From: Watersipora subatra
Lineage: Eukaryota > Bryozoa > Gymnolaemata > Cheilostomatida > Watersiporidae
Assembly (NCBI RefSeq): GCF_963576615.1
Contig: NC_088711.1
Coordinates: 20,554,182 to 20,618,181 of the forward strand
Length of the DNA: 64,000 bases
Direction of reading: 5' to 3'
In this document: positions 9,383 through 62,514 of the stretch, in pieces
Numbering within the stretch: the stretch's first letter is position 1
How the letters are laid out: every line of letters starts with the position of its first letter
Made by a program: the position numbers and the translations under genes
Notes under the pieces: generated by a model
What the model saw: only the letters and a program-made list of their open reading frames with translations
Told to the model about the DNA's origin: nothing
Databases searched by the model: none

Positions 9383-12300
9383 ATGTCGTATACAGGGCAT
9401 AAAAAGGCTATGGCACTCAAACCAGCAATGGTTAGACGCATATTCACAGGTGTTCGATATGCAATTCTTCAGTCATCAGCTTGCCATGGCTCTACTGCCG
9501 CTAAGACCTTCACTGCCATCAGCGATACAACAGACAAATCTAGTGAAAACTTCAAAAACTTGTTCAGCACCAGCAAGGGAAAAGAACAGGAGTACCAAAA
9601 ATTATTAGGTTGGTTTTGGAATTTATCTACTATTTCTATGGTATTAGCCAGATAGTTTCATCATTAAGATAAGTGTTACAGTATTATCCATGTGACCGCC
9701 AGAACCGACCTTATTCTCTAATTTACTTATAGCGATGGAGTTATAGTGATGGAGTTATAGTGATGGAGTTATAGTGATGGAGTTATAGTGATGGAGTTAT
9801 AGTGATGGAGTTATAGTGATGGAGTTATAGTGATGGAGTTATAGTGATGGAGTTACAGTGATGGACTTATAGTGATGAAGTTATAGTGATGGAGTTATAG
9901 TGATGGAGTTATAGTGATGGAGTTATAGTGATGGAGTTATAGTGATGGAGTTATAGTGATGGAGTTACAGTGATGGAGTTATAGTGATGGAGTTATAGTG
10001 TGTCAAAACTTGAAGGGTGACTCTTATAAAACTTTTAATGTCAAAACGTTAGTTAGGCTAATTCCAAATTTATATATACCGGTACATCTCGCTTAGTTAT
10101 GCGTTTGTACATTTAAATGTTGCCCCTATATATGGTTACAAGTAGCGCTGTAATAGTTCATACAGGCATCTACGGTGAATAGTTGAAAAAATAGATGATG
10201 TTTTTTTTTTTGGTTAATTAATGTTGAGATATCCTATTTAATTATTTTCATTTTGTAAAACTTCAATTGGACATTTAAAAATGAATACCTAGAAACTTCA
10301 ACAACTTTAAAAATGCTTTAATGGAAACAACATTATTTGTCGTCAAAAATAACCGAAAGTTTTTAAAATAAATGATTGAAGAAGTTTGCCTCAGTGAAGG
10401 AACTCTTGCCTTTTTATTTGTATTAAAATTGTTAGCAACCATTGTGAGTTCCTTAGCAGAACAAAAGATTTTGCAAGATTGTAAGAAGTTACTTACAATT
10501 GGGTTAGTAATAATTAGCAATCACAGTTACGGGCATGCAAAGACACCAGATCTCCAAACTGACCCAGTAGTTATTGCATAGCTAGTCAGAGTACTTGATC
10601 AATTATTCTACTAGTAAATCCATCTGGATTAAAGAGAAATTATCTGATCCCAGTTTTTTGCACATTCGTTACATTTGCTACTGTTAACATTTAATAATAG
10701 TTGTGTTTCACAAGAATTCTCCACATAGCTTTTCTATTTAAACAGGTATCTTTAAAATGTTGGAATTTTTTTTTAACTTTTGATTTAAATAATGCTAAAC
10801 ATTTTTATTTGGTCGGACCAGCAGTTTCCATTTTGTTGTTCGCACTAAGGGAAGAAATTTCTTCAACCAGTGAAGCCAAACTTTAGTGTTAAAGTTAGTG
10901 CAGTCATCTATCTCACTCTGATTACATGGACATCAAATTTATCTCCGCTTACGAACAGACTAGCTACTATCTTTCCTACCAATTATCAATGAAACTAACA
11001 AACCAGTAGCTGTATGTGACTGGTAGCAGAGTCATACATTGATGTCTCCTTATTAGTTCCTAGTTAGGTATCTAGACATCCCCGGAGGGAGCTAGGAGTG
11101 TCAATACATGACATATAAGTTCCTGATGAAAAGCTTGTAGGACACACTACAGTGCAATATGCCTAATAAGTAGTTAATGGTACCAGCTAGTGAGGAAATG
11201 GTAGAAAATGGCTCCTTTGCACTCTAACATCGGTATGAAGTTTAAGATCATCAAATTTAGAGTCAGAGTTCATTGGCACAAATCAAGGGATTTTCAATTT
11301 TAAAAGAATTAGAAATTAATTTTTTGTCGTGGCAATAGTTTAGGTATCTATAATGTGCTATCACTTGTTTGAAGAGGTCGTGCGACAAAGTGACCCTAAG
11401 GGAGTACAGCGACATCTAAAGCAAGGAAAACTTCTGGTCCGTGACAGGATGAGCAAACTGCTGGACAATGTAGACGACTTCTTGGAGTTATCTGCTGTGG
11501 CGGGTGTAGGAATGCCATATGGCGACATACCATCTGCAGGCGTTGTCACTGGTTGGTTGGAATATTAATAACATTTAATTAGTTTCCAGAAGACTCTTTT
11601 TGTTACCATTGCGTAAGACTTTAATCAATTCAGTTGTATCTCATGTGCAATAGGAAAAATAGATAGAGGTGTGCATTAACAACTTGATGCAATCTGCTGA
11701 ACCTAACTGTTGCAAGGGTCTGTGAAAAGGCGAGTTTGGTTATGCCTCGTTGTTGGAGCCGATGAGGTTTTCTGGTAGTTATTGGAAGCTTTTAAAAAGT
11801 TAGAATTGGTTAATTAATGTAAGAATGTATCAAAACAAGCTTGTGTTTACCCATCAAATAGTTTAACATATGTAGTTTCTTGATAGCAGAGTTATGAGTC
11901 ACACATTGGAAGTGTTTAGGTATTGTTTGCTTCATATAAACAAGAGAAAAATCCTTGAAAACAAACAATGGTTAGTTTATTAAAAGTACAAAGGGTCCTC
12001 GACTTACGACATTGATCCGTTCTTAAGACTCGGTCTAACTCGAATTTCAGTGTAAGTCGGAACATCCTGGATAATTCACTCTGTACTCTTTTTAATATAT
12101 GGTTTCGCCTTCATGATGATATCTTTTCTTTGGTACATTATCATTTAAAGAATCTGCCATACGCTCTGGAGTCATAATAATAGTAAACAAATAAACAAAA
12201 ATTCAGGTGACGGAGCGAAAACCGACCTACACAACCAAAATAGAGTATCATTATATCTGAATGACACACTGATGCTGTCTTCCACTATCACAAGCACCAC

Positions 12301-15300
12301 ATAGCATATATTCATCTTCTGCACGGTGGATACTTGTTCACAGTTGTTTACATCCGTTTTGTTGTATGTTAAATATTATTTTGATATTTCTATGGGGTGT
12401 ATTTGCAACCTTGAAACAGCGTAAGTCGAGATTGTTGTACCTTAGAACTACCTGTCATTTTTGAGGGGCCAGCATGCTAAACATGTTGATTATCTGGAAC
12501 TTGATTGGAATCAATTACTTATTTGGCATTTGTTGAATGTGAGTTTTATGCCATGCGGATTTTGTAGGGTTTGGGCAAGTGCATGGCAAGGATGTCCTCG
12601 TCATAGCTAATGATGGATCATTCAAGGGTGGTACTGTTTTTCCTATTACACTCAAAAAACAGCTGAGAGCGCAGCAAATAGCACAGGAGTTGTCAATCCC
12701 TTGTGTGTATATCGTGGACTCTGGTGGTGCTTTCCTTCCTCTACAGGTCAGTAATTTAGTAGCACAATCCAGTTCATATGATGTTTGACAAGAGACTATA
12801 CTTGTACCGTAATCAAATTGAATCTCCTTGTTTGTATATCATATTGGGAGTTGTCCTATATTGATGAGATAGATTTGAAACAGTAGACAATTTCAATAAA
12901 ATCATGAGTTCTTAAGACTGTACCAGCCACGTAAATGTAGAGATAGGGATAAAACATTTTGGCATAAACTCACATATATATATGGTGGCATGTTGCTCAG
13001 CTATAGATTTCCAAAGCTACTAAAAGACTTCAATAATTGGTGGCAGGGAAAGCAATGATAGGAACTAGTATTAAGCCTGGCAGTGCCCAGGATTTCTTTC
13101 ATTTGCAATCAAATAGGCAGCAAGGTGAGTGTCTAAGTGGCTGGTTCTCAGAAGCCTCATGGAGTTTTGAAATCAATTATTTTAGTGACCTAGCAAAAGG
13201 TGTGGAGCATGTGCGTGTCAGGTTTGGAGGAAATCGGACAAAAATGTGAATCTGAAAAAAGAATGTGAAACACACAATGACAAAGTGGGCTCTGTTAATA
13301 TTAATAGAAGACAACCCTATACTATCTTTTTTTAATTTTTTTTAATATTTTAGCATTTTGATTGATTGTCTTCAACTTCATTTATTACTGTTATATAAGT
13401 AAACTAAAGTTTAGCTGCCAACATATAGTAAAGAGCTCTTGCATTTAAAGCCCGTGATTCAGTGAACATCTACTTGATGGAAGGCGTGTATAGTCTTGTC
13501 ATAAATAGATTTTCTAGACTTTCAACTTGGTAATCTTCAAGTATAGAGTGCATTGAAGAGCTCTTTGGTATATATCCATTGTTATTTGTGTATCTCCTTG
13601 ACTGTTATGCAGACAGCGATGATTTTTTTTTAAATTGGATGATCCATCAGAATATAAATCTAACAAACAATGTCCTGGAAAACTTTTATGTTTTTAGTAG
13701 CTTTTACTAATCGAAGGCAAAGTTTTTTTTTTATAATAAACACACTGCTATAGTAAAAGCTAATGTTAAAATAATTGGGGTGTTGTATACATAGGATAGT
13801 CTAACACACTGTAATTATCAGCTTCTTGCCGTTAGATTATCCCATTAATTCCAACTTGTGCGTTTTCACAAAAAGTTATAGTTTTACCTACACAATTGGT
13901 AGGAGTTAAGAATCGTATTCCTAGCTGAGTTTATCATTCATAACTTGGTTAGAAAGATTATTGGCAACCTAATGTCCAGGATTGTTCTCTATCGACATGG
14001 AACATATCAGAAAATGATGCTGTTTTCACATCTGAACGCATAGAATCTCATCAAAATAAACCATCGAGCATGCTGGTTTTCATGAGTAGTTTTGTTCCCT
14101 TTTTACCCTAAATCACTGTTTATATACCGTACATGTCATGTTACAGTCTGAAATCTTCATCAATGGTGGAATCACTTTTTACAATGAGGCTGTGATGTCT
14201 TCAATGGGAATTCCACAGGTTAGTGTTCCTTCTTAGTTTGAATGTTTCGGTTCATTGTGTTCTCCAGAGTTTACAGACAAAGACAGACATCATTAATGCC
14301 AGTCTAATGTCAGGCTGCAAGGTTGCTCTACTCTGGTAGCCATGAAGGAAACCGTCCACAAATACATGCTTTGTGTTGAGATAAATTTGGTAAAATATCT
14401 TGATTTGGAAATACGATTTGATCTTAAATTCATTTTTTGGCCAATGTAATCAAAACCAAAAAGCTAAATAAATACAGTAAAGTAATTACATGGGAATTCA
14501 ATAATATTTAAAAAAGATATTACCATGATATAAGGATGGTTTAGATAAATGTATAGGACAGGCCAGATGTCTGGTGTGCTCGGTGATTTGTGTTTGTGGG
14601 TGTAGATATGAAGATAGTCTGTTGACGTACTTTAGACAACAGAGATTCTGAAATACCTAAAGTTCACCGAGCCCAAGGGTCTTAAATTTGTTGGTCATAA
14701 TTCTCCTTATAAGGCATAATCAATCTTACACAAAAGTCTTTGGAACCTTTCTGTATTTCTATCTGATGAATATGTAAACCAGCAAGGTGCTGCGCATAAC
14801 ATGATGGATAACATGCTGCGTTGGTAAAACAATGATTTTATGCCAACTTTGTAGAGATTGATTAAGACATAAGCAGTGGGTCCACTCTTGGATATATCAT
14901 AGTCAACATCATCAGAAAATGTAAATGTTTATCAAATTGAACACTGATTAGTTTTACTGAATAGCTTCCCACTATATTTGCATTGCTTATCAAAGTTCCA
15001 TGTTTATTCCAAGTTTTCTGCGCAATGTTAAATGCGTCTTATTTGATCACCAGTGTCTCACTTGCTCATGGCCAGTAGGTTTATGAATACGATCAAAAGT
15101 TCATATTTAATAATCAAGATGTGTTCTTTCATCTTCAGTTGTCATGGCAGCCTGTAAACTGTCACATTGCTATGAAGTTTGTAGGTGGTTTCCTCAACAA
15201 TATTTTTTAAACAGCCGTAGAATTTTAAATTTTTATAGCTGTTTAAAAAAAATTTTAGAATTTTAAATTTAGTTTTTAAATTCCAGCATCCGCATACTAG

Positions 15301-18300
15301 CAGCAGACATATAACTGACTATATGCTCATGTATCCTTCAGTTTGAGTCATCATTAGAATGCTTTAATATCTTGCTTACTGCATGTCAATAAAAAACAAA
15401 TGTTTTTTCCAGATAGCTGTAGTGTGTGGAATGTGTACTGCGGGTGGTGCCTACATACCCACAATGGCAGATGAAGCTATTATGGTACATAAAACTGGGT
15501 CTATATTTCTGGCTGGTCCACCGTTGGTCAAGGCAGCTCTAGGAGAGATAATCTCTGCTGAGGAACTGGGAGGAGCAACTATGCATTCTACGTAAACGTT
15601 TTATGCCATGTGATAGTCTTCACTAGTTTTACATTATAGAACAGAAAAAATATATTAATACACTATATAACAGCAAAAATATTAATATATTATATAACTA
15701 CAAAATATATTAATACACTATATAACAGCGAAAATATTAATATATTATATAGCTACAAAATACATTAATACATTATATAACAGCAAAAGTATATTAATGC
15801 ATTATGTAACAGCAAAAAGATAATAATATTTTTGTTTGCTATTTTATAAATAATGCGGGTAATTATTGTAACATTTAAGAGCTCATGTACTCGAGCAGTG
15901 CCTGTATGGCCAAAACTGTTGGTCGGTTTTACCCGCTAGTCTTCCCCTTTGTTTGAAAATACAATTGTTAATTTCTTTGTATTTTAATATCATACACCAT
16001 CTCACAAGTCATATTAACTGTTTCAGGAAAGCATTTAGCCAAAACTTTGTTATTAAACTAAGCAAACTTTTAGAGAAAGTAGAAAATTTATTTTGGAGCT
16101 TTTTATTTGAACTGGTAAGGGACTGAGTCACTTGCTTGCGTGAGTCGCTTGTCCGCATAGGTGAGCTTGTTTACTTCTCCTGTTAGTAAAGATTTTAGCT
16201 CTCACTGCTCAGCCACGAATATTTGTATTTTACTTTTTGTCAAATAAAACAATGTTTTCATCTGTCTAAAGCCACTCTAAGAGCGTTAGGAAAAATATCT
16301 CCTCACACGAAAATCAAACCCGGGGCGTCAATTTCATAGACACTTTCACTTCAGTTTTTTAGCACTTCTTGCATTAACTGTCTATCTTGATGTACCACAT
16401 CGTATGTCTCGGCAAAGAATTTCTGTATGTATGGCCAAGAGTCGCGTTATGCGGCTTTAGCAGGCTTCGTACAAATCATTTCTGAGTAGTTAATAAATTA
16501 CCCTTGAATATAGCGATACTGTAAAATGAAACTATTATCTGCATTTCTTAAGCCAACAAAAAGCATTTTAACAACTCATTATGAGCATAGGCTCACTTTG
16601 CAAAAACTTATTTTTTATCGCAATTTACTGTTAGCAATGACTTGTCGTGCTAGGCGCATTACAGATCCGAATTTTTACTAATTTTAGAGCTATGAACTTT
16701 GAGTGATTGTTAATGAAGAATAGTACTGAAAGTTATTATTCATATTTATCAGTAATAATAATAATAATAATGCCGTAAACTGTAATAATATTAATAAATC
16801 GTCCGACTCAGATCTGCTCAGTTTTTTTGAAATTGGCTGAAAAAGTGTTCATTCTCATTCTGCACCGCATTTGGGGTAATTTTTATAGCATCAGCCGATG
16901 TAACATTGTATGATGAATAATTTGAAGTCAAATTATTTTTATAGACCATATGATTCAAAAGTTGTGACAATTTATACGTGCCCCTGTCAAATGTTAGGGT
17001 TTTCCGAATACGCAACTACATCCCGATAAAGAAATTAATTTGGTAGCGAAAGAGTTAGTTATGCACTTACTGATTACTCATGACGATCTCTCACGGTGCA
17101 CAAGACTGCCGAGTATGCTAGTAGAGGTAATCTGTACAAATTCATTTTAAATCTTGTGGTGTATTACTGTCTCGTTATAATTTTAGATTTTTTTGTTTCT
17201 GTTGGTGCTAGGAACAATAGAACTGTGAATATATTTTGCTGGTGTACACTTATTGGTACATACATTGTTAAGAATACACAATGTGTTAGCTTTTTACTGT
17301 GATTAGTTGGCGAGACCAACGGGTGGCATACAACAGCTGTACCCCTATTTACAGAGTAAGCGGGTGTGTTGATCACTTTGCGCGTGATGAAGAAGAGTCA
17401 TACAGAATCTGCAGAGATGTGATTCTCTCTCTCAACTTGCCAGATGTTGTTTATCCTCAAACCTTTTGTCCGCCATTATATGATGCTGAGGATCTTCATG
17501 GTCTTGTGTCTGCATGCGACCCGAACGCTCATCAGGTTGGCTACTTGGTCTCTAAGGCTTTTTTATGTGACCAATAGTATTAATGATATTCATCATATTG
17601 TCATATCAATTAAGTTCTTCTCATTTATCTTCACTGTATGCCGATATGCAAGCAATAAATATAATATAAGATACTTTCTCGGAAAATTTTGTTATCTTTT
17701 AAATGCAGACGTCTAAAATGAGCTATTCCAATGATCGCTTGATGTATACATATATTGTATATACTAGCTGTGCTACCCGGCGTTGCCCGGGTATTAAAAA
17801 TCAACTCATATACAATGAGAAGTAATGAGAGTGGCCTGTCACTTGCTATTAGCCTGGCACATTGACAACAGAAAATTTCTCTAAGCTAATAATATCTAGG
17901 GCTTCTAATAACGGTACGCTGTGACGCAAGTACCATGACTGCGTCATGGTATTTGCTCCCATATAGGACATGTATGGCGTAGCTAGTCTATCAATCTCTG
18001 TGGCCTAATCGGTACAACGTTGGACTGGTGAATAGGAGGGTCCGAGATCAATTCTTCTTCAGTATGAATTTTTTATTCCAAGTTTCTAATAATAGCTATA
18101 GCCGGAATGACTCACAGATTTTAAGAAATATATATATATATATTCCATGATGGCTTGTTTGTTTGGATATTCTTTCGAGCATTCATCGGCAAGAACTTTT
18201 TTTGTGCAATAAGCAAAAATAATAAAAAAATTGAGTTATTGACTTCCTACAAGCTCACATTTAGCAATGTGAGTCGCTTGTCATTCACACGTGTTTTAAT

Positions 18301-21300
18301 GACATACATATGTACTTAGATATGATTTGCTGGTTTTAAGTAAATTTATCTTGTAATCTACACGAGTGTTGTTTTAGGTTATATCAAGAATTGTAGATGG
18401 AAGCGGGTTTCAGGAGTTTAAAGCCCTCTATGGAAAGGCATTAGTTACTGGCTTTGCTTCTATATCTGGGTGAGTGTATTCCTACATCACATCCTATTAA
18501 TATTGTCTGCCCATAGGCCTGGCTACACACACTGACGCAATGCATCGCTGGGGCATTGTGCAGTTGTTTGCTGTGGTTGCACACATCAACATTACCAAGC
18601 GATGCATTCTGTTGGCAAATACATCGTTCATTGAGAATAGCCTTCAGTTGTGTAAAGCCCATGGACACCTAGCCTGATTTTCCAGTAAAATCATTTTTTC
18701 ATTCAGTTTTCATTCAATGCATTGGGATACTTATTATATACTAGATGAATGCCCAGCGGTTTCCAGTTATTAAAAAGGTTTTTTGCGTAAAAAATTTGTT
18801 TTCATTTAACATACACGACATTTACCATTCTAACTTTTAAACTTCATATCATGAGAAAAATGTTTTGTACAGTTGAGATAAATTTAGAGGAAAATAAAAT
18901 TTTGTAGACTTGCGGTTTGAATGACGCGAGTTCAATTCCAGTTTCACGCGGATTTTTAATTGCTAAATATTAGTTGCTATAACTGGACACAGGGATAACA
19001 GACCAACAAAAGACAAACAATGAGATATATATATATAGACTATGGATATTCAAAGATTGGTAATAGCATTAACATTTGTGCATCTATTTGTATTGCTATA
19101 TTTTGCTCAAAAACAGCGATGCATGCCGATGATGAAAACAAACAAGCACAAAAATCCTCAGCGTTCATGGCATGTGTAGATTAAAATATAGAAAAAAAAA
19201 GAATTTAACATATTAAATATTAAATTTTAGCATATGAAATGATTATCTGAAATGTTTTATGAACAGTTTTAATTTGTAATAGCAACTGTCATATAGCTGT
19301 TACACAAAGAAATATCTTTCTCTACGTATAAGCTATTTAATTGTTGAATTACTGTCTAGGTATCCAGTAGGAATAGTGGCTAATGCTGCTGCCGAGTGGA
19401 ATGCTGACGCTAGCACAAAAGCTTCACACTTTGTGCAACTTTGCACCCAGAGACGGCTGCCTTTGATATTCCTAGTCAACCAACATGAGCGGGACAGGCA
19501 CCCCGATCCTCTAGTCAATGGTGGGTTATAAAAACTTTGACGAATTATTTGTCAAGCTGGAATAAGAGAAATATATTCAGACGATTCTGTTCTTAGCTTT
19601 GGTGGCCTGTAAATCAGAAATTCAGGCTAGATAATTTCCCCCCTTTAAGAGTTTCTTGACAGTTTCATATTTGTATCCAGCTTTTTGTGGCTGCAGCTAG
19701 TAGAATAGTATTTAATAACAAAGATGGTCGCTCTTGTATTTCACTGACTTGTTTATGTAAGTATGAGTAGTAGGTTCATGTTTGTCCTGCAGGTGAGGAG
19801 ATGAAATGTCATGCAAGGTTTATGGCTTCCGTGGCCTGCTCTGATGTTCTTAAGGTCTCTATTGTGACAGGTGCCTTTCATGGACTGGACAGCTATGCCA
19901 TGGTGGGTTTTATATTTATTACCATCTTACCATCAATTGGTGTTTACGGTGCTTTTAGATGCTCTATGAATAAGGGGGGTATTTAGGATCCACCTGGGAG
20001 GTCAGATTCCTTGGATAGTAGGCTGTGTGATTAGGGTACACATGGGAGGGCAGATATCCTATGGATAGGGGGTATGCAATTGGTGGTCAGATATCATTGT
20101 ATTCAATTGTGAGGGTTGTCCCCACAATCATAAAAAGTTTTGGTAGTTTTTATATAAATTTATTTACACAAGAGTACGTTATAACCGAGCCAGACATGGT
20201 CTATATCGCGGCCGAGGGCCTGTCGGTGCATCATTGAAAGTCGTAACTGGAGATCTTCATAAATATTTCTGCTTGTTGGCTACAGTAACCAGATATTTGA
20301 CATAACAATTGTGTGGGTGTGGGCTAATGATTTTTATGGGATATATTGATACCTCTTTAGGGTGCATATAGGGAATGCAAAAGCACTTCTAGGCAAATGT
20401 TTATAGGCTTAGAGAGCTGTATATTCTAACCAGATATCATACTAGGGAGGCCTCATGTATAAATATGAGACTTCCCTAGTATGAATCATCTATAACTAAG
20501 TCTATTTATATATGAGGCATCAATATTTGTATTGATGCCTCATATATAAATAGGAGGCATCTGTGTGTAGGTTTATGCAATAGTTGACTGTACATGTAAT
20601 TCACATGGTTAGTAGTATCTCTCTGATTGTTACTTCAAGCAGCTCACCTCCTAAACCTCTGCTTTGTGTTTAGACTTTTGAACACTGCTTTAATAATTGT
20701 GTTCTAATTGCTGTTTTATTAAAGGATCTACATATATGTAAGAAAGTAAATCTTTTACTTGTCTACCAATTCACTGAATGGAGTTGTCTCATCTTATAAA
20801 GTATATATCTTATAAATCTGTCTTCAAGTTTAGGTCATGCATCGATGTACTAAACAATAGTTCATAAAGTTTGCATATCGTTGATTGATATAACGGTAGA
20901 CTGGTCTGACCATATCAAACGATCAATGGTCTGACCATATACACTGTTTGTTAATTTTATCAATATATATATACGATTATACACTGTAGATAATCATTTG
21001 TGAATTGATGTTCGATGTTAAAATTAGCATTGTGTTTAGTCAGCAAAGTGCTCTAAGGCAGACACTTTCGGTTACGTGTTTGCTTCCTCCAATCACTGTT
21101 GGCCTAACTGTACCTTTAGTAGAAATATTTATTGCAATATTTATTAGCAATAAAAAAAATTTCCAAAATTAACTTGTTCTTCACTTCACTCATGGGAAAC
21201 CTTAACTTATTTACTTGTCAACTCTATGATTATTCTATTAGTCCGGGAGAATACTTTGTAGCATCCTAGCTGATTCCCCTAGTAGTCCTTGTCAAGGTAT

Positions 21301-24300
21301 GAACATTGAAGAAGTGAAATATTATCTATAATAGATGTCTATAATAGATGTTTATAATAGAATGTTCTATAATAGAATCTATAATAGATGTCTGTCTTAC
21401 TTGCCACTCTATTTCATATTAAACTCATGCATAAATATTTTTGGTGAAAACAGACTATTTGACGGAGCCCTTAAAAAGGAATTACAATTATATGCATGGT
21501 GAAAATCAACAATTTTTTTCTACTTTTACCGGGCACTATATCTTCAATTCCAATCTAGTATGTGTTTAACAATTTGTACAGAGGTAAAATTTGTTGCAAG
21601 TATTGCTCTATAAATGCCACTCATTAAACATCTCTGGCATGAAATCATTGAGATTTGCTATCACAGGTCACACGGTTGTCATGTTACTGAAAGTTTGGGC
21701 TGTACCGTGTGATATGCCTGTTTAAAAGCGTCCATCTTGCTTTGCAGGGTAGTAAGGCTCTAGGCTCCAACTTGGTCTTCCATTGGCCAAGCGCGAGTTT
21801 CTCCATGCATTCTCCTGACCATCTTCAGTCTGTGTCTTCTATGACCGAAGAAGAAGTGGGAAAAAAGTCAAGTTCTCTCTATGCAGCAGCCAATGTATGG
21901 ACAGATGGGATGATTCTACCTCAGCAGACACGGCAGGTACATGCTCATACTTGTCACATATACAGACACGGCAGGTACATGCTCATGCTTGTCACATATA
22001 CAGACACGGCAGGTACATGCTCATGTTTGTCAAATATATAGGCACGGCAGGTACATGCTCATGTTTGTCAGATTTACAGACACGGCAGGTACATGCTCAC
22101 GCTTGTCACATATACAGACACGGCAGGTACATGCTCATGTTTGTCAGATATACAGACATGGCCGGTATATGCTCATGCTTGTCACATATACAGACACGTC
22201 AGGTACATGGTCATGCTTGTCAAATATACAGACATGGCAGGTACATGCTCATGTTTGTCAGATATAATGCCTGTCAATTGAGATTTAAAAAGTAAATATT
22301 TAATCTGTAAATCATGATTTTAAATGAGAAAATTATAAACTTTCTATTTGATATTTAGGTGAAATGTTTTTTCAGTGTTGAAGAAAATCAAAATTTTCAA
22401 AGTTTTTCAAGTGTTTCAAGTTTTTCAAACTATTACACAAGTGAGTTAAAATGGCCTTCAATTTGCTCCAATTAGAAAGGAAATGGGCCTCAACAATGAT
22501 TGGACTAATATTTATTAAAGATACTTCCATATAAAATTCAGTAATGTAGTAATCTGAAGTGTACATGAGTTTGGGACATTACAGCAAAGCCACCCTTGTT
22601 TGGTTGAATTAAATTTGATTGCTTGTTTCCGTATACTTCAGACATTATTCTTCCCTAGGACACTTATATTTCGCTAGCATTCAGTTTCGTGAGTAGCTCA
22701 CTGAGTGAAATTTCGAAGCAACTTAATTTCGCAGCTCTGATGAGTGCGAAAATATAGTGATGTGAAAATAAGTGCAGTGGAACAAACATAATTAGATTCT
22801 TCAGGTTCAGTTCACCGATAAAAAAAAATTTCAATTTGCGACTAGTTTGTAATTGTGAACCGCAGGTAGAATGGTGTGGGCGAGATCGATAATGCAATTT
22901 GATCGCTTGCTGCCATTTGTTTCTTGGACTATCAACAGGCCGTTTTCGCTGGGGCAGCTGGCCGACTGAGCCGCCCCAACTTTTTGGGAATTTTTTACGG
23001 TAAGTACAGTCCAACTCGGATAACTCGCCCTCAGATAAAATGTAACATTTCATCTCAAACACAAGGTCAACGCAAACGGATTTGTTTGGTCAGTTCCAAC
23101 GCAATGATAAATTCCTTCAGATAACTCGACCTCAACATCATTTATTCGAAAAGTTATTTGCCCAACGGCCATGGACGCGGTTTTTATCGCTGTAGAATAT
23201 CACTTCATTCCAAGCCATAGAGACAAACATAAACTTCTAGTATTTCTTAGGCATCATTGTTATCATCATCAGAGGCAGAATATTTTTGTTAACGACTTTT
23301 ATAAAGGTTTGCAGAAGATTAAGTTTTATCAAACACCCGCTTGGCCATGTCCCATCGAAAGCGTAAAAGCCTCCGAATGAACTTAAAATAAAATCCGCAA
23401 AATTGATCTTTGTTAAGACGCTCAAAAGAAAAAGATGTCTTTTTTCTGAGCGTTTTAATTGCGGTCATGTTTTGCCTATTGTAATTTAAAAACGTCTCGT
23501 CAGTCACATCACTTAAAACAAAACAAATCTCAAAAAATTACAAGTTATTGAAGAGGTGTCAGTGGTGAATCCAAACCTTTCCAGAGCCATGCTGCTTGTG
23601 TAGTACTGCGAGTGTCAGTGCATGTGTCTTATTTTCTTTCAACACACGGCGCTCACTGCATTAACTGATGTCCTCAGCAAACGATAAACGCTACTAATGC
23701 GTGTGCATTGACATCAAATTCCTATCATTATAAATCATTCTTAATGGGAAAATAATCATAATTAATTGCAAAATAATAACGTAATAAATTTTGACAGTCA
23801 AATTATTTTGTAGGTTTATATTTTAATGATGCTATAGTGGTCGTTAAAAACGTTAAAATAAATGTCGTTATAAAATGCTATTCTACAGTATCAATGAACA
23901 AAGCTATTTAGTTTCGCTTTTTCGCTCGTTTGTTATGATAGTTTAGTTTCGCACATGATACTTTCGCGAGAGGATGACACCGCGAAAACGCGAAAGTTAG
24001 ATGCCGCGAATACATAAGTGTCCTAGGGTATGTAATGTGGCCTGTTGAATAAGCTACCCAGTGCAATCAACTTAATATAACACAACCTGCTGGAAATGCT
24101 ACATACACAACTGAGTACGCTACATAGGACAACCCGCTGGAAATGCTATATAACACAATTGACTAAATATGGTACATAGCACAACTAATTAAATATACTA
24201 TATAACACAACTTGGTGAAAACTACACATGTACCACATCCAGCAGAATATGGTATGTACATGTACAAATTTCTCTGAGATCACAATATGGCACAACTGAA

Positions 24301-24494
24301 TATGCTATCATGCATACCACGTTGGGCACAGTGTATCTCACAGCCAACTAAACTTTATATATAGCACATAGTGATCAGGTTTACTGGATGTTCAGGTGCT
24401 GAGCAAAGTGCTCCAGCTGTTCAAGTACTCCAAGGAAATGAAGCTACTGGCTCACGAGTCAACAACTGCAAAACAGACCAACTTTAGAATGTAG
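9383..24494 (+). CDS. MCCC2: MCCC2-like carboxyltransferase, divergent paralogue (11 exons)
   Basis: Related to the beta (carboxyltransferase) subunit of mitochondrial 3-methylcrotonyl-CoA carboxylase, the leucine-breakdown enzyme. Exons: 9383-9640, 11344-11551, 12568-12746, 14147-14218, 15413-15591, 17355-17535, 18378-18469, 19360-19520, 19793-19902, 21748-21936, 24396-24494; all introns GT-AG, phases consistent, 575 codons plus stop (human 563). The start may be the Met at 9410, which has a better Kozak context and opens a basic, targeting-like peptide. The N domain keeps [34 protein letters not shown] and [12 protein letters not shown]. In the C domain, the GSYGAGNYG region reads [18 protein letters not shown] reads MHSPDHL, and about 20 residues are missing near the C-terminus, which still ends in FRM. 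The exon 1 end at 9640 is chosen only by phase; AG|GTTGGT at 9608 looks better but does not fit exon 2. Catalysis is doubtful. Confidence 0.88.
9729..10000 (+). repeat. 14-bp minisatellite in intron 1
   Basis: About 19 tandem copies of TATAGTGATGGAGT with very few substitutions, starting some 90 bp after the inferred end of exon 1 of the MCCC2-like gene. Confidence 0.95.
11989..12437. mobile_element. TA-flanked MITE with TCGACTTACG ends
   Basis: The left end CAAAGGGTCCTCGACTTACG and the right end (inverse CAACAATCTCGACTTACG) form imperfect terminal inverted repeats between TA dinucleotides at 11987-11988 and 12438-12439. The subterminal GTCTAACTCGAATTTCAGTG, then TAAGTCGGAAC, repeats the same theme. 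It lies in intron 2 of the MCCC2-like gene and has no coding capacity. Confidence 0.6.
13063..13260 (+). repeat. dispersed element, copy in intron 3
   Basis: The head is ACTAGTATTAAGCCTGGCAG, followed by TGCCCAGGATTTCTTTCATT, shared in order with 25748-25795. The block around GGCTGGTTCTCAGAAGC and TTTGAAATCAATTATTTTAG matches the family at 9003-9297 (-) and 25866-26000. Confidence 0.55.
15640..15825 (+). repeat. AT-rich tandem array in intron 5
   Basis: About six imperfect copies of a unit near 30 bp, alternating the variants ATATTAATACACTATATAAC and ATATTAATATATTATATAAC, beginning shortly after the exon 5 donor. Confidence 0.8.
17761..18125 (+). repeat. composite SINE-like element with internal tRNA-like part
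   Basis: The head is ACTAGCTGTGCTACCCGGCG, then TTGCCCGGGTATTAAAA. About 235 bp later comes a tRNA-like segment with A box TGGCCTAATCGG and B-box-like GGTCCGAGATCAATTC, then AATAGCTATAGC. The same parts occur in the same order on the - strand at 51020-51320, which shows this is one element and not a chance pairing. Confidence 0.6.
18737..19045 (+). repeat. dispersed element, second TACTAG-headed subfamily
   Basis: The head is TACTAGATGAATGCCCAGCG. The internal block AACTTCATATCATGAGAAAA and AGATAAATTTAGAGG is shared with the - strand copy at 52370-52580. GAGTTCAATTCC near 18928 resembles a B box, and the 3' end is ACAGACCAACAAAAGACAAA followed by (AT)n. Confidence 0.6.
20437..20553. repeat. 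two adjacent long hairpins in intron 9
   Basis: The first (20437-20484) pairs TCATACTAGGGAGGCCTCAT with its near-perfect inverse. The second has two exact 24-bp arms (20502-20525 and 20530-20553) around the loop TTTG. Both contain the word GCCTCAT/ATGAGGC, so they may be decayed copies of one palindrome. This is structural evidence only. Confidence 0.9.
21925..22268 (+). repeat. 38-bp minisatellite containing the exon 10 splice donor
   Basis: Nine units with an exact 38-bp period, each carrying ACACGGCAG|GTACATGCTC or a one- to three-base variant. The first GGCAG|GTACATG is the donor that ends exon 10 (21936). The equivalent junctions fall after 21974, 22012, 22050, 22088, 22126, 22164, 22202 and 22240. 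All three forward frames stay open for long stretches; these frames are a product of the repeat and are not genes. Confidence 0.97.
22653..24028 (+). mobile_element. CCCTAGG-ended element, copy 1 (intron 10)
   Basis: It begins CCCTAGGACACTTATATTTC and ends with the inverse of CCCTAGGACACTTATGTATT. Subterminal regions are rich in TTTCGC and GCGAAA words. Read in the opposite direction, 62515-63729 is a second copy sharing both ends and interior blocks (GCAATTTGATCGCTTGCTGC, GACTATCAA, GGCCATGG). A foreign stretch starting CAGTCCAACTCGGATAACTC at 23007 looks like another TA-flanked element inserted here; its right end was not found. No intact transposase is visible. Confidence 0.8.
24047..24320 (+). 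repeat. degenerate tandem array before exon 11
   Basis: Irregular copies of a unit near 33 bp built on GGAAATGCTACATA(C/G)CACAAC, much diverged, ending about 75 bp before the exon 11 acceptor. Confidence 0.55.
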
Positions 24495-42700: not shown

Positions 42701-45700
42701 TATGTATTGTATTATAACTGAACGGTGAAGTAAGACTATGAGTCAGTTATAGGAAAGGAAAAACAATATCATTGGTTAAAAATGAGGTGACCAGGTTTGA
42801 ATCTAATAGTAACATTCAGCAGTCACCTTTGATCATCTGACCTATTACTGTATATTATTTGAACAGCGATTGTTCGTTCTTATTTAGACTATAACTATTA
42901 CATGTATTTAACTGTTAAACTTTTAACAAAATATCATTTATTTAAAAACTGCAGTAAGCCTGAGATTTCTTTTGTTTTTAACCAAATAGCCCACTGGTGG
43001 CTGTTTAAAAGAATGGTTCTTAGTAATGACATAATTTTTAAAACCAAATATTTTTGGTGACCTTACGGAAGATGAGGCGCGTATGCGTGTGGAGTTTGAA
43101 TGAAATTAGCCAAACAATGTGGAAACACAGCATTTACACGAACAAACAGACAGACACACAAACAGACAGACACACAAACAGACAGACAGACAGACACACA
43201 AACAGACAGACACACAAACAGACAGACACACAAACAGACAGACACACAAACAGACAGACACACAAACAGACAGACACACAAACAAACAGACACACAAACA
43301 GACAGACACACAAACAGACAGACACACAAACAGACAGACACACAAACAGACAGACACACAAACAGACAGACACACAAACAGACAGACACACAAACAGACA
43401 GACACACAAACAGACAGACACACAAACAGACAGACACACAAACAGACAGACACACAAGCAGACAGACACACAAACAGACAGACACACAAACAGACAGACA
43501 CACAAACAGACAGACACACAAACAGACAGACACACAAACAGACAGACACACAATGACACGGACAAACAGACAGACACACAAACAGACAGACACACAAACA
43601 GACAGACACACAATAACAAAGTTGGATTTATTAACATAGATGTGTATTTAAAATTATTTTAGGATTGTTTTTGTGGTTCACGATTTCTGGCAGCAAAAGT
43701 CTCAGTATCCTGCTTGAGAAATTGTTGACTTGTAGCAATACCTCATCGCTTTGATCTTGAGTCTGCTTACTTGTCATCTTTTTATGAATGTGGGATGACT
43801 TGAGTAGACTAGTTGCTGATACTTTTATGATTCGCTAGTAACAGTATTTCACAAGACCTCATTGTTGTCATTGTATGAAAGGACTAGTATACTATTAATC
43901 ATGCATGCAAATGTCAAGGAATTCCGAGTCGAGTACTTTATAAATTTAGATTGCAAATAGTACCACATTTCGCACTGTTTTATTTCAGGGTGTCTAGAAT
44001 CTGGATACTGCTATGACATCTGGCAGTTCAGCACGCCAGTAACAAAGCAGCAGGCTCAGCAGAAGTGTATAGAGGAGAAACAGACGCTGGCCACCATTGG
44101 ATCCAGGGATGACGAGATAGAGCTAGAGAGACTCCTAACAACTGATGCATGGATTGGTCTCAGCATGACCGCTAGGGACCAGTTTTATTGGCTCGGTGGT
44201 AGGTAGCAAGAGATCTTTGTGGTGAGGGTAAACAGGGTGCTTCAGGGCACAGACAGTAAATGTTTTAGCTTAGCGTAAGAGCGGGTTAATTTATCTGTCT
44301 CAGTGTGTGAGAGTGACAGTTGTATATCGTAAAAAGCGAAATTTTACTATAATAAAAGCTGTGTCTGTCCTCGCATTCATCTGTCAAAAGCTTACAGGTT
44401 AGAAAAATATATTGCTCTCAATAGGATTTGAACTCATGATCATCCGCTAGGTAGGACAATGCTTTACCACCTGCACCAATCGACTGCCTCAAATTGTTTT
44501 GGAATAGATTAGTTAATTATTCTTTGTGCTTTATTGGCATACTCGACTACCATGGTACTAGTAATAATAATGTATTTATATCTTAACTGAAACTATTTCA
44601 TTTAAAATAATAATATTAAAATTCGGTCTATTCGTGGTCTACTTTCTGGGTATCAAAGATTATATATATTTGTATATACAGTCTTCGATACTCAAAAATA
44701 TATATACTTGTATATATTTCAAAACTGCAAAACATATAGCCCATGAGATTTAATTTGTTATTATTTATTCTGCTAAAAATGAATAGACTGCTCCATAAAG
44801 GTTGTTGTTAAACCTTTTATTTGTGCTAGTACCCTGTGTCATGAGATATCATCAGGTGTAATACACAAAAAATAGGTAGCTGCACAACTATTCAGCAGCA
44901 GAAGGTGGTTGATTGGCTAAAGTTTTGAGGGTCTGCCTACGAAGCTGACTGTCATCAGTTCGAGTCCCGTTGAAAGCATTCTTTTTTTAAATGCTTACCC
45001 TGGCTTTGGGCAGACGAAGGGCAGGGCTCTCATTACAGTGAAGATTAACAGATATTTAAATAGGCTACAAGCAAAGTTTAATATAATGTTGAGAGTGTTA
45101 AGAATAATTTACTTTCAAATAATTATCACGATAAAATGCAATAATTGTTCCAATTTACTATTTTTATTTGATATTATGATAGAATGTTTTTTGATTAAGG
45201 AGTTTTGTTGCACAGCATGTGAAAATAATTTGATTTATAACTGATAGTTTGTAATAATTTAATAAATAAAGTATTTTAAAATTATTTTCATATCATTAGA
45301 AGATTTTCTTTTAAACTTGTTCAGTGTTTAAACTATACCGATGAGTGCAGTTATCACTTCAATATTTTGTTTCCAGTTTCACTTTTTGCTATTTTTAGCC
45401 ATATTTCTGCACTAATTTAAAGAAACTATATAACATGCATGAGAGCTTATTTATAATTTTAACACAAGATAGTTTGTTACTTGATATAATATACATTCAT
45501 AGGCTAGATGAGTCTTGCTCCTTGTCTTGATTTATAATATTATCTTCCAAACCTTCCAGTAGTGAAAGATATGAGTAAAACTATAGAACTAAATTGTTGC
45601 ATTGTATTGTAGAGACCATGTGGTATGAAAACCCGATTCCAGGCGGTGATATTATTACAGCCGGCAACTTTGGTACGGGTTGTCTGTTGCTCAACAGAGA

Positions 45701-60500: not shown

Positions 60501-62346
60501 CTGTATTCACATATTTAAAAAAGCACAAAGTTCTTTTTATAATACTTACAAAATAGTCAAATTAAATTTTACTGTGGAGCCTGCCACAAAATATTAATAA
60601 TTTGAAAAGATTTTCTGAGCCAAAGGGTGGTCTAAATCTTTGATTGTTTTTACAATTATCAATCTCAGCATGAAATGTTCAAAAGCCTATTTGAGAGACG
60701 AGTGTTGAAACTCATGTAGCGCAGAGTACGCAACTGGCCAAGCAAATGATGAACTTTTTTTTTAACCATGAATGTTAATTTTAGTTTCTGCATGTACTAT
60801 AATTATGGTTTGTTTATTTTCACCTGTTCTTGAATAAATATATATTTGTAGCATTTGATAGATTATTGTTATTATAAAACTTAAAGATTTGCAGACTTAT
60901 AGCATATTATTTGATAGCATGATTGCGGCAATCTGAACTTGGCTTACAATAGATCGACGCTTGTAACTCCTGTTCTATCGCTCATAAAAATCCATTTTTG
61001 GCAGGCAAACTGTAGCAAACATATCAATGTGATTTTATGCAATATAATTATAAAATGAAAATATGCCTTCAAATTTAAAATGAAATAAAAACCTTAAAGC
61101 TCCAACAGATTGCAACGCAGACTATAAGATTATCGTAAGTTAAGGCACGCAATAGATATCACTTGGCAGAGACATGTATCAGCTTCCTCGGACATATTAT
61201 TTAAAGTTCGACAAGTTGGAGGTAAACTAGCAAACTTCTAGCATACAAAAGGTTTAATGTCGCACCGCAGGAAGGAGATTACAAAATGTAGGCGACATTT
61301 GATTCGCCTGTGAAAGGGTAAAATTTATCTTCTCAACATTCTGATAGGGTGGATGAAAAATACAACGCCACCCTCTATTTGAACGTCTCCACTCTATGGG
61401 AAGCACCACTCTGAAGGAAGGATTAAAAAACAGAGCGCCATGGCATTCAAAAAAAGGTTTTACGGTAACAAGTATCACAGGACTTTTCTGCCTCATAAAA
61501 TGATAGGACGACTACCATTGCAAGCATACTGAAGTCTATTTAAAACACAGAGCGGTTTGAAGTGCACCTCACCTGACCTCGCCTGAACAAGGCTTTTTCA
61601 CTCTTACGATCAAAGCGTAAGGCATCTTCACATTGTTTCTTAGCCTCCGACCAGTTCTCTTCCTTTATGTAACAGAGAGCCAAGTTGAGGTGCGCAGCCA
61701 GTCGGAGGGAAACCCGTTGAGTTTTTTGTTCATCATCGAAGTCTGTTTCATCTTCCAGCCATTTTACAACCAAGTTATATTTCTTTATTGCTTTAAAATA
61801 TTGGCTTTCCTAAAGAAAAACGTAAATCTGCTATTAAGGTCAAAGACAAGGTGGAGCAAAAGCAATCCAAACAATTTATTTTTTATTAAATACACACCTT
61901 GAAGAATGCAGTGCCTTTAGATTTAGCCAACTCTGATTGTGAGAGTTTTTCTGGAGGGTCCATCTCCCAGCTCTCCTTGGCTTTCTCAAGGTCAATCAGC
62001 GTCATCTGCGCATGGATATTAGACCAGCTTAAACAAAACTCCACTGAATGGTGATTACTCCAACAGAAGCAACAGCAGACAAGTAGGACAAAAGAATGTT
62101 GTTAATCATAGTACATTACCTCATATGTCACTGTTGAGTCTGCAGGAATGTTGAACTCTGCACAACCCTCCGCACCAAATGCGTATTCGGGTGAAAGAGT
62201 GAGGGTAGACGTTTCACCCTTTTTAAATTTTCTGATGGCAATATCGAGGCCCTCAGGCAAGTTTTGTTCACTTGCATCACCAACACGAAACTCCATGTCT
62301 TTCCTCTCATCGAATACCTTATCAATATAGGTTCCCTTCACAGAGA
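57575..62346 (-). CDS. FKBP4: FKBP51/52-type immunophilin co-chaperone, 3' part (5 exons)
   Basis: C-terminal 265 residues of an Hsp90-associated FKBP. Exons in transcript order: 62346-62120, 62005-61898, 61809-61573, 59670-59485, 57616-57575; splice phases agree (the first begins in phase 1, so at least one upstream exon exists beyond the window or was missed). Exon 1 here is the second FKBP domain (KVFDERKDMEFRVGD, LPEGLDIAI, SPEYAFG). The position of the key PPIase Trp is Leu, as in the inactive second domain of FKBP52, so it is probably a structural domain. Then come the linker EKAKESWEM and the TPR region. Residues matching the two-carboxylate clamp that holds the Hsp90 MEEVD tail appear kept (SKGTAFFK, HLNLA, EKALFRRG). 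Then EKKLYANMFSKM and a short tail GSSSANAHPGTEV. The 14-codon last exon is inferred from phase, stop and acceptor. Confidence 0.9.
57617..58615. other. proximal part of the last FKBP intron
   Basis: No supported exon on either strand. A 115-codon open frame on the - strand (58072-58419) has no family resemblance and no matching splice sites. Confidence 0.45.
58616..58760. repeat. nested hairpin cluster
   Basis: GTCCCCATCAAC and its inverse form a hairpin at 58616-58642, and an extended copy at 58662-58695. CTTCGGCGTTCATT and its inverse form another at 58700-58734. In addition, 58675-58713 pairs with 58722-58760 as one long, nearly perfect stem of about 39 bp. So the middle unit can fold in two competing ways. 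Confidence 0.9.
58763..59038 (+). mobile_element. truncated copy of the 757-1563 element
   Basis: Shares TAATGCTGCAGTTATGGTAC, CCCACAAATTAAAA, TTAGGCAATT and the right terminal repeat (inverse CAGTATGCGCTCCTACAATG) with the element at 757-1563; TA follows at 59039-59040. The left half is missing and is replaced by the hairpin cluster. Confidence 0.75.
59671..61249. other. FKBP intron between TPR exons
   Basis: AT-rich; no exon, RNA gene or clear repeat was seen in this part. Confidence 0.5.
61250..61465 (-). mobile_element. truncated relative of the 46524 element
   Basis: On the - strand it starts AAACCTTTTTTTTGAATGCC and includes ATAAATTTTACCCTTTCACA and GGCGAATCAAATGTCGCC, TACATTTTG. These are parallel to ATAAATTTAATCCTTTTACA and the following bases near 46650-46700. 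The other end is missing. Confidence 0.6.
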
Positions 62347-62514
62347 CTGTAAGAGATAGAGTGACTTTAAGTGTATGAATATACCAACCACTGAGTGAGT
62401 AGTCTACAGTTGTTACACATAACGATATTATAAGAGCAAGATTTAAACTTAGCCAAAACTATTATTAGATGCACCTTTAGGATCCAAACAAAACTTCGTA
62501 AATTAAAGGAACTA

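Follow-up and report, generated by a model that had tools for sequence, protein, structure and literature searches.

Why does the bryozoan Watersipora subatra possess a gene whose product resembles MCCC2, the β subunit of 3-methylcrotonyl-CoA carboxylase (MCC), closely in one half and poorly in the other? The gene occupies positions 9410–24494 on the forward strand of a 64,000-nt stretch of NC_088711.1 (the window, to which all coordinates refer). Eleven exons give a single open frame of 545 codons followed by a TAG stop, and all ten introns are GT-AG. We consider that the gene is probably (about 0.6) an old, apparently maintained MCC β paralogue turned pseudoenzyme, the sequence suggesting a protein that would bind acyl-CoA and be unable to use carboxybiotin.

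The exon model was built from reading of the sequence, inspection of splice sites and spliced alignment to human MCCC2. The ends of exons 1, 8, 9, 10 and 11 were set by reading frame and splice sites and differ from those of the automatic spliced alignment, and the junction of exons 1 and 2 is the least certain part. An earlier note on this DNA had described a gene without stops over 11 exons at 18378..24494; the open frame stands, but that interval holds exons 7–11 only and the gene starts at 9410. By spliced alignment the product and human MCCC2 share 222 of 500 residues, with the terminal residues misaligned. The Pfam carboxyltransferase (CT) family PF01039, Carboxyl_trans, matches residues 80–476 with an E-value of 1e-85, and none of seven listed NCBIfam models scores above its cut-off. 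The start of the protein is basic, with no acidic residue among the first 38, and resembles a mitochondrial presequence. A stretch ENFKNLF is similar to the extended N-terminal helix of MCC β (approximately 30 residues), but depends on the least certain exon junction.

Is this the MCCC2 of the organism? The earlier note had advised looking for a second, canonical copy, and one exists. A PF01039 search of the whole 784 Mb genome, in which counts are lower bounds, gave at least 25 exon matches, all within four loci. The first (C5) is canonical MCCC2, with 374 of 494 aligned residues identical to the human protein in a model that begins at human residue 65. The second (C10) is PCCB, the propionyl-CoA carboxylase (PCC) β subunit, with 401 of 537 aligned residues identical to human in the spliced alignment. 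A third (C9) aligns poorly to both MCCC2 and PCCB queries and is, judging from its motifs, presumably the CT of an acetyl-CoA carboxylase. The window gene (C4), of which three of the 11 exons pass the family search, is an extra, fourth CT locus because the canonical MCCC2, PCCB and the acetyl-CoA-carboxylase-like CT are all located elsewhere. Its product is not closely similar to human PCCB, with 30% identity in the N domain and 26% in the C domain.

The conservation of the window protein was assessed against 82 MCC β sequences, namely human MCCC2, the canonical copy of W. subatra and 80 bacterial or archaeal MCC-type sequences (the best 80 of 590 confirmed matches), at the human positions where these are 95% conserved or more. 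The canonical copy therefore helps to define the positions on which it is scored, and the 80 were chosen by an alignment led by the window protein, which biases the set towards that protein. In the N domain (68–312) the window protein keeps 88 of 107 near-invariant positions, then 26 of 32 at 313–400, 16 of 47 at 401–500 and 9 of 14 at 501–563. The corresponding values are 106/107, 29/32, 47/47 and 14/14 for the canonical copy and 53/107, 19/32, 23/47 and 5/14 for human PCCB. The asymmetry exceeds chance, both for N against C domain (88/107 versus 51/93, Fisher p 3e-5) and for 68–400 against 401–500 (114/139 versus 16/47, p 5e-9), and the one-sided conservation noticed earlier is borne out. 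Identity to human MCCC2 is 51.0% in the N and 38.4% in the C domain, compared with 72.1% and 78.1% for the canonical copy. The ratio of C- to N-domain retention was compared in 50 sequences that span MCC, relatives like geranyl-CoA carboxylase (GCC), PCC-like proteins and others. The value for the window protein, 0.41, is the lowest; the next are L128 (0.68) and L131 (0.76), both on the PCC side, and L113 (0.77). Fifteen bacterial relatives labelled GCC-like from their tree position and loop display the reverse asymmetry, with ratios of 1.12–1.40. The GCC-like relatives thus differ in the acyl pocket and preserve the biotin half, the opposite of the window protein.

Three regions of the C domain, NITGFMVG, GSYGAGNYG and MGGEQA in MCCC2, are replaced as the earlier note had claimed, and the replacements lie in register between conserved flanks. 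The tree has 40 bacterial sequences on its MCC side. Of these, 39 read GAGN and one GAGH at human positions 446–449, where the window protein reads GLDS. All 40 carry G[FY]x[VI]G at 406–410, a loop for which the window protein has no equivalent. MGGEQA and near variants prevail at 473–478, where the window protein reads HSPDHL; MHSPDHL had been recognized as a replacement, but paired one residue out. The suggestion that some 20 residues are missing is also upheld, since 24 alignment columns of the canonical MCCC2 are absent, the gap falling within exon 10 alone. With 16 of 47 positions kept at 401–500, the biotin-side motifs expected of an MCC β C domain are lacking, and such loss of catalytic motifs alongside an intact paralogue is one of the features expected of a CT pseudoenzyme. 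A frameshift or mis-splicing was rejected as an explanation of the unusual motifs, since the flanks are in register and there is no canonical exon in the six frames of the window. A six-frame tblastn search of the whole window (E ≤10) with the organism's own and the human canonical MCCC2 revealed no alternative exon with canonical motifs, the earlier note having named transcripts with such exons as grounds for refuting its reading; matches outside the gene model are weak (E ≥0.3).

Studies of S. coelicolor PccB reportedly distinguish a biotin-side oxyanion hole from the side that holds the acyl-CoA thioester. We take the residues aligned with human Ala447-Gly448 to form the former and the CTAGGAY side to bind the thioester, which provides a lead and not a test. 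The window protein keeps CTAGGAY and has Leu-Asp at the positions aligned with Ala447-Gly448.

The N half had been described as close to human MCCC2. CTAGGAY and most conserved residues are indeed kept, but the identity of 51% falls short of the 72% of the canonical copy, and Phe191 together with the three-residue insertion that precedes it in MCC β is missing, as in GCC β. According to PMC4673880, Phe191 and this insertion shrink the MCC pocket, GCC has glycine at the position, and the F191G variant of MCC, with essentially no activity left on 3-methylcrotonyl-CoA, acquires activity on geranyl-CoA. PMC4347857 likewise gives Phe191 and the flanking stretch as a determinant of MCC specificity. 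The window protein aligns to the GCC structure 5ikl at equal length (2–173 on 90–261), whereas the MCC chains listed are three longer. Twenty-four columns of the N domain distinguish MCC from GCC-like proteins, and at these the residue is MCC-type in 13 cases, GCC-type in three and neither in eight. Two of the three GCC-type columns represent the gap in the Phe191 region, and elsewhere in the domain GCC-type residues do not prevail. Because 13 of the 24 diagnostic columns are MCC-type, the loss of Phe191 is read as a likely convergent loss in an MCC-type protein.

Does the gene appear to be maintained? When the canonical C half (230 codons) was made to evolve neutrally to 38% identity, the runs gave a mean of 7.3 stops and a minimum of two, with 0/300 runs free of stops; at 60% identity the mean was 5.1 and 1% were stop-free. 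The GC content of the three codon positions in exons 8–11 is 54.5/41.7/50.0%, versus 34.3% in introns. Substitutions at 401–500 are milder than shuffled ones (p 0.02) and hydropathy is correlated (r 0.23, p 0.02). These data support a coding gene, by arguments made within one genome that do not gauge present selection.

With respect to origin, two of the ten introns lie at the same alignment column and in the same phase as introns of the canonical MCCC2 (222/0 and 351/0); the probability of two or more chance matches is 0.002 when eight introns are placed at random. The N domain shares 53.2% identity with that of the organism's own MCCC2. Against the same 80 bacterial MCC sequences, the best of 590, the mean is 52.6% and the maximum 57.7% (58.2% in a second alignment), and 23 of the 80 are closer than the own copy. 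The two animal MCCC2 proteins have 28 special residues in common, of which the window protein shares two; it has the bacterial-majority residue at six and a gap at nine. As the N domain resembles bacterial MCC as much as the own MCCC2 and so few animal-special residues are shared, the protein would seem to have branched off early. Given also the two introns that match the canonical gene exactly, we prefer an old duplication in which the parent gene already had introns. Descent from a separate bacterial gene, its introns coinciding by chance, is the less favoured possibility. The closer bacterial N domains are in its favour, but it must explain the intron matches and no single donor stands out. 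The best full-length bacterial identities are 45% to 47% over approximately 420 residues, with two shorter N-side matches at 48% and 52%.

The phylogenetic check proposed in the earlier note, which drew on relatives from prokaryotes and on two MCCC2 proteins from animals, did not place the window protein. In the free full-length tree it sits beside Melainabacteria MCC (support 86/90) on a branch of 2.75. Constraining it to animal MCCC2 gave a log-likelihood 12.6 better than the free tree (approximately unbiased, AU, test p 0.85), and constraining it to the GCC-like proteins one 15.5 better (p 0.87). With N-domain columns the same constraints were worse, by 9.5 (AU p 0.31) and 17.0 (p 0.20), respectively. 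A recent lineage-specific duplication is disfavoured by the two of 28 animal-special residues, although pairing with the own canonical copy is not rejected (AU p 0.175). An origin within the GCC lineage is disfavoured by the diagnostic residues, 13 MCC against three GCC, although again AU tests do not reject it. No viral relatives were found in IMG/VR at the sensitivity used.

We now consider function. As an MCC β-derived pseudoenzyme the protein would be imported into mitochondria, and would fold and oligomerise as a CT β subunit. It may still bind an acyl-CoA, probably one bulkier than 3-methylcrotonyl-CoA, would not receive CO2 from carboxybiotin, and might then serve as an acyl-CoA-binding or regulatory subunit and not as a carboxylase. 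The earlier note had proposed a pseudoenzyme or a CT-fold protein with a new task, perhaps that of binding acyl-CoA without any transfer that depends on biotin. A protein that has lost its biotin-side motifs and kept most of the acyl-CoA side agrees with this, but the N half is not simply MCCC2-like. Several observations weigh against the pseudoenzyme. Three other relatives, L105, L109 and L113, lean to an altered C half, although far less (0.81, 0.91 and 0.77), and the motif at 473–478 is not universal, being MSADI in two of the 40 bacterial sequences (L105 and L109). The type of substitution at 501–563 is unconstrained (p 0.63; hydropathy r 0.27, p 0.06), and 401–563 taken together is weakly constrained (BLOSUM p 0.10; hydropathy r 0.25, p 0.01). 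Loss of catalysis is argued from motifs, with the biotin-binding roles of single C-domain residues presumed.

In CTs each active site is shared by two subunits, one contributing its N domain and the other its C domain. The alternative that survives best, though we think it unlikely, is a mixed hexamer with canonical MCCC2 in which one hybrid site handles larger acyl-CoAs and the opposite site is dead. The N domain of the window protein, its pocket enlarged, would there face an intact biotin half of MCCC2. This would account for the preservation of the N domain and for the freedom of the biotin half to change, and the pocket mimics that of GCC, the F191G variant of MCC having gained geranyl-CoA activity (PMC4673880). 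PMC4347857 sets the CT site within a symmetric CT-CT interface and indicates a mixed pair, AccD4-AccD5, in mycobacteria. With the site so placed, one active site in a dimer of the window protein and MCCC2 could be hybrid and the other dead. A more specific version, which we find rather more doubtful, is a dedicated subunit whose widened acyl-CoA pocket would combine with the intact biotin half of MCCC2 to create an animal mitochondrial GCC-like γ-carboxylase for larger branched acyl-CoAs. Such an enzyme would be unusual because GCC, according to PMC3199775, has been observed only in bacteria.

It is similarly doubtful that selection is relaxed and the gene is becoming a pseudogene, its frame intact by chance or recency. 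The long branch (2.75), the C terminus without constraint on substitutions and a nine-copy minisatellite overlapping the exon 10 donor would suit that explanation. However, frame and splice sites are intact over 545 codons despite deep divergence, the neutral simulation and codon-position GC speak against it, and the loss is selective, not uniform.

Slightly less likely still is a biotin-independent enzyme with enolate or thioester chemistry such as hydration, isomerisation or decarboxylation. The CT N domain folds like a crotonase and has an oxyanion hole of its own for acyl-CoA. The window protein keeps CTAGGAY and most N-domain residues around it, and its matches to PDB sequences include glutaconyl-CoA decarboxylase A. 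That decarboxylase also takes biotin as acceptor, which counts against the idea, and no new catalytic residue can be named. Finally, an artefact of gene prediction or assembly that garbled the C half of a normal MCCC2 is highly improbable: the exon 1 junction is uncertain, but the replaced motifs keep register between conserved flanks, the window contains no N and, in six frames, no canonical exons, and the family matches reported in the genome, at least 25, fall in four loci.

Table 1. Exons of the MCCC2-like gene, with the basis for each assignment.
Feature	Position	Strand	Basis
Exon 1 (residues 1–66), basic presequence-like start and part of N-terminal helix region	9410..9608	+	In-frame ATG, GT donor; absent from the choice of the automatic spliced alignment
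Exon 2, start of CT N domain	11375..11551	+	Spliced alignment to human MCCC2; tblastn E 2e-10 to canonical MCCC2
Exon 3, N domain with VDSGGAF	12568..12746	+	Spliced alignment; tblastn E 2e-18
Exon 4, counterpart of human FPDRDHFGRTFYN, without Phe191 and three residues	14147..14218	+	Alignments
Exon 5, CTAGGAYIP at 15434–15460	15413..15591	+	Spliced alignment; tblastn E 5e-21; preceding intron shared with canonical MCCC2 (same place, same phase)
Exon 6, last part of N domain, and linker	17355..17535	+	Spliced alignment; following intron matches canonical MCCC2 in place and phase
Exon 7, conserved start of C domain	18378..18469	+	tblastn, 71% to canonical MCCC2
Exon 8, end replaces NITGFMVG region	19360..19520	+	Splice sites, alignment
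Exon 9, end replaces GGSYGAGNYGM	19793..19902	+	Splice sites, alignment
Exon 10, MHSPDHL replaces VMGGEQA, then 24 alignment columns of canonical MCCC2 absent	21748..21936	+	Alignment
Exon 11, stop TAG; C terminus NFRM resembles human FGIFRM	24396..24494	+	Alignment

Repeats occur within the gene. The minisatellite consists of nine copies of a 38-bp tandem unit at 21925–22266, which start inside exon 10 and contain its splice donor. Within it GGCAGGTACATG occurs exactly seven times, from 21932, the donor of exon 10 itself, to 22236, forming a row of possible alternative donors. Intron 10 also carries perfect 15-bp inverted repeats (CCCTAGGACACTTAT) at 22653–24028, 1346 bp apart, which resemble the termini of a DNA transposon or miniature inverted-repeat transposable element. 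About 20 copies of a 14-bp repeat (TTATAGTGATGGAG) are present in intron 1, at 9727–10000. Elsewhere in the window, an open frame on the minus strand at 62105–62458 encodes an FKBP_C domain (E 3e-15) and probably belongs, as an exon, to a neighbouring gene for an isomerase of the FKBP type. Long open frames of 148 to 206 amino acids overlap on both strands at 43042–43659, an arrangement that suggests a tandem repeat, not genes; the one scanned has no Pfam match.

If the gene is conserved, it would represent an animal CT-subunit pseudoenzyme in which one half of a two-half active site is kept and the other erased, and a natural test of non-catalytic or hybrid sites in MCC hexamers. We found no description of an MCCC2-like CT pseudoenzyme in an animal in the titles and abstract openings searched, a partial coverage of the literature that is weak evidence of absence. 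There is also a warning for annotation, in that a further CT gene labelled MCCC2-like need not carboxylate 3-methylcrotonyl-CoA.

How does the protein compare with known systems? With MCC β (PDB codes 8j4z chain J and 3u9r chain B) it shares the CT architecture, 43–46% identity, the terminal FRM, the MCC-type residues at 13 of the 24 diagnostic N-domain columns and, with the organism's own MCCC2, two introns. Unlike MCC β it has no Phe191 or insertion, no NITGFMVG, GGSYGAGNYG or MGGEQAA, and lacks 24 columns near the C terminus. The absence of Phe191 and of the three-residue insertion is common to GCC β (PDB code 5ikl chain B) and the GCC-like bacterial proteins, one of which (L122, of 15) has a different, longer loop. 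The GCC-like proteins, however, keep the first two C-domain motifs, and only three of the 24 columns of the window protein are GCC-like. Mycobacterial AccD4 and AccD5 belong to another CT group, and the available text of PMC4347857 calls neither catalytically dead, but they offer a precedent for the interaction of two different CT subunits. BADC of the plant plastid acetyl-CoA carboxylase, named for a biotin/lipoyl attachment domain, is kin to the biotin carrier and not to the carboxyltransferase; nevertheless, it sets a precedent, since PMC7835884 describes it as a carboxylase subunit that is not catalytic but influences assembly and activation.

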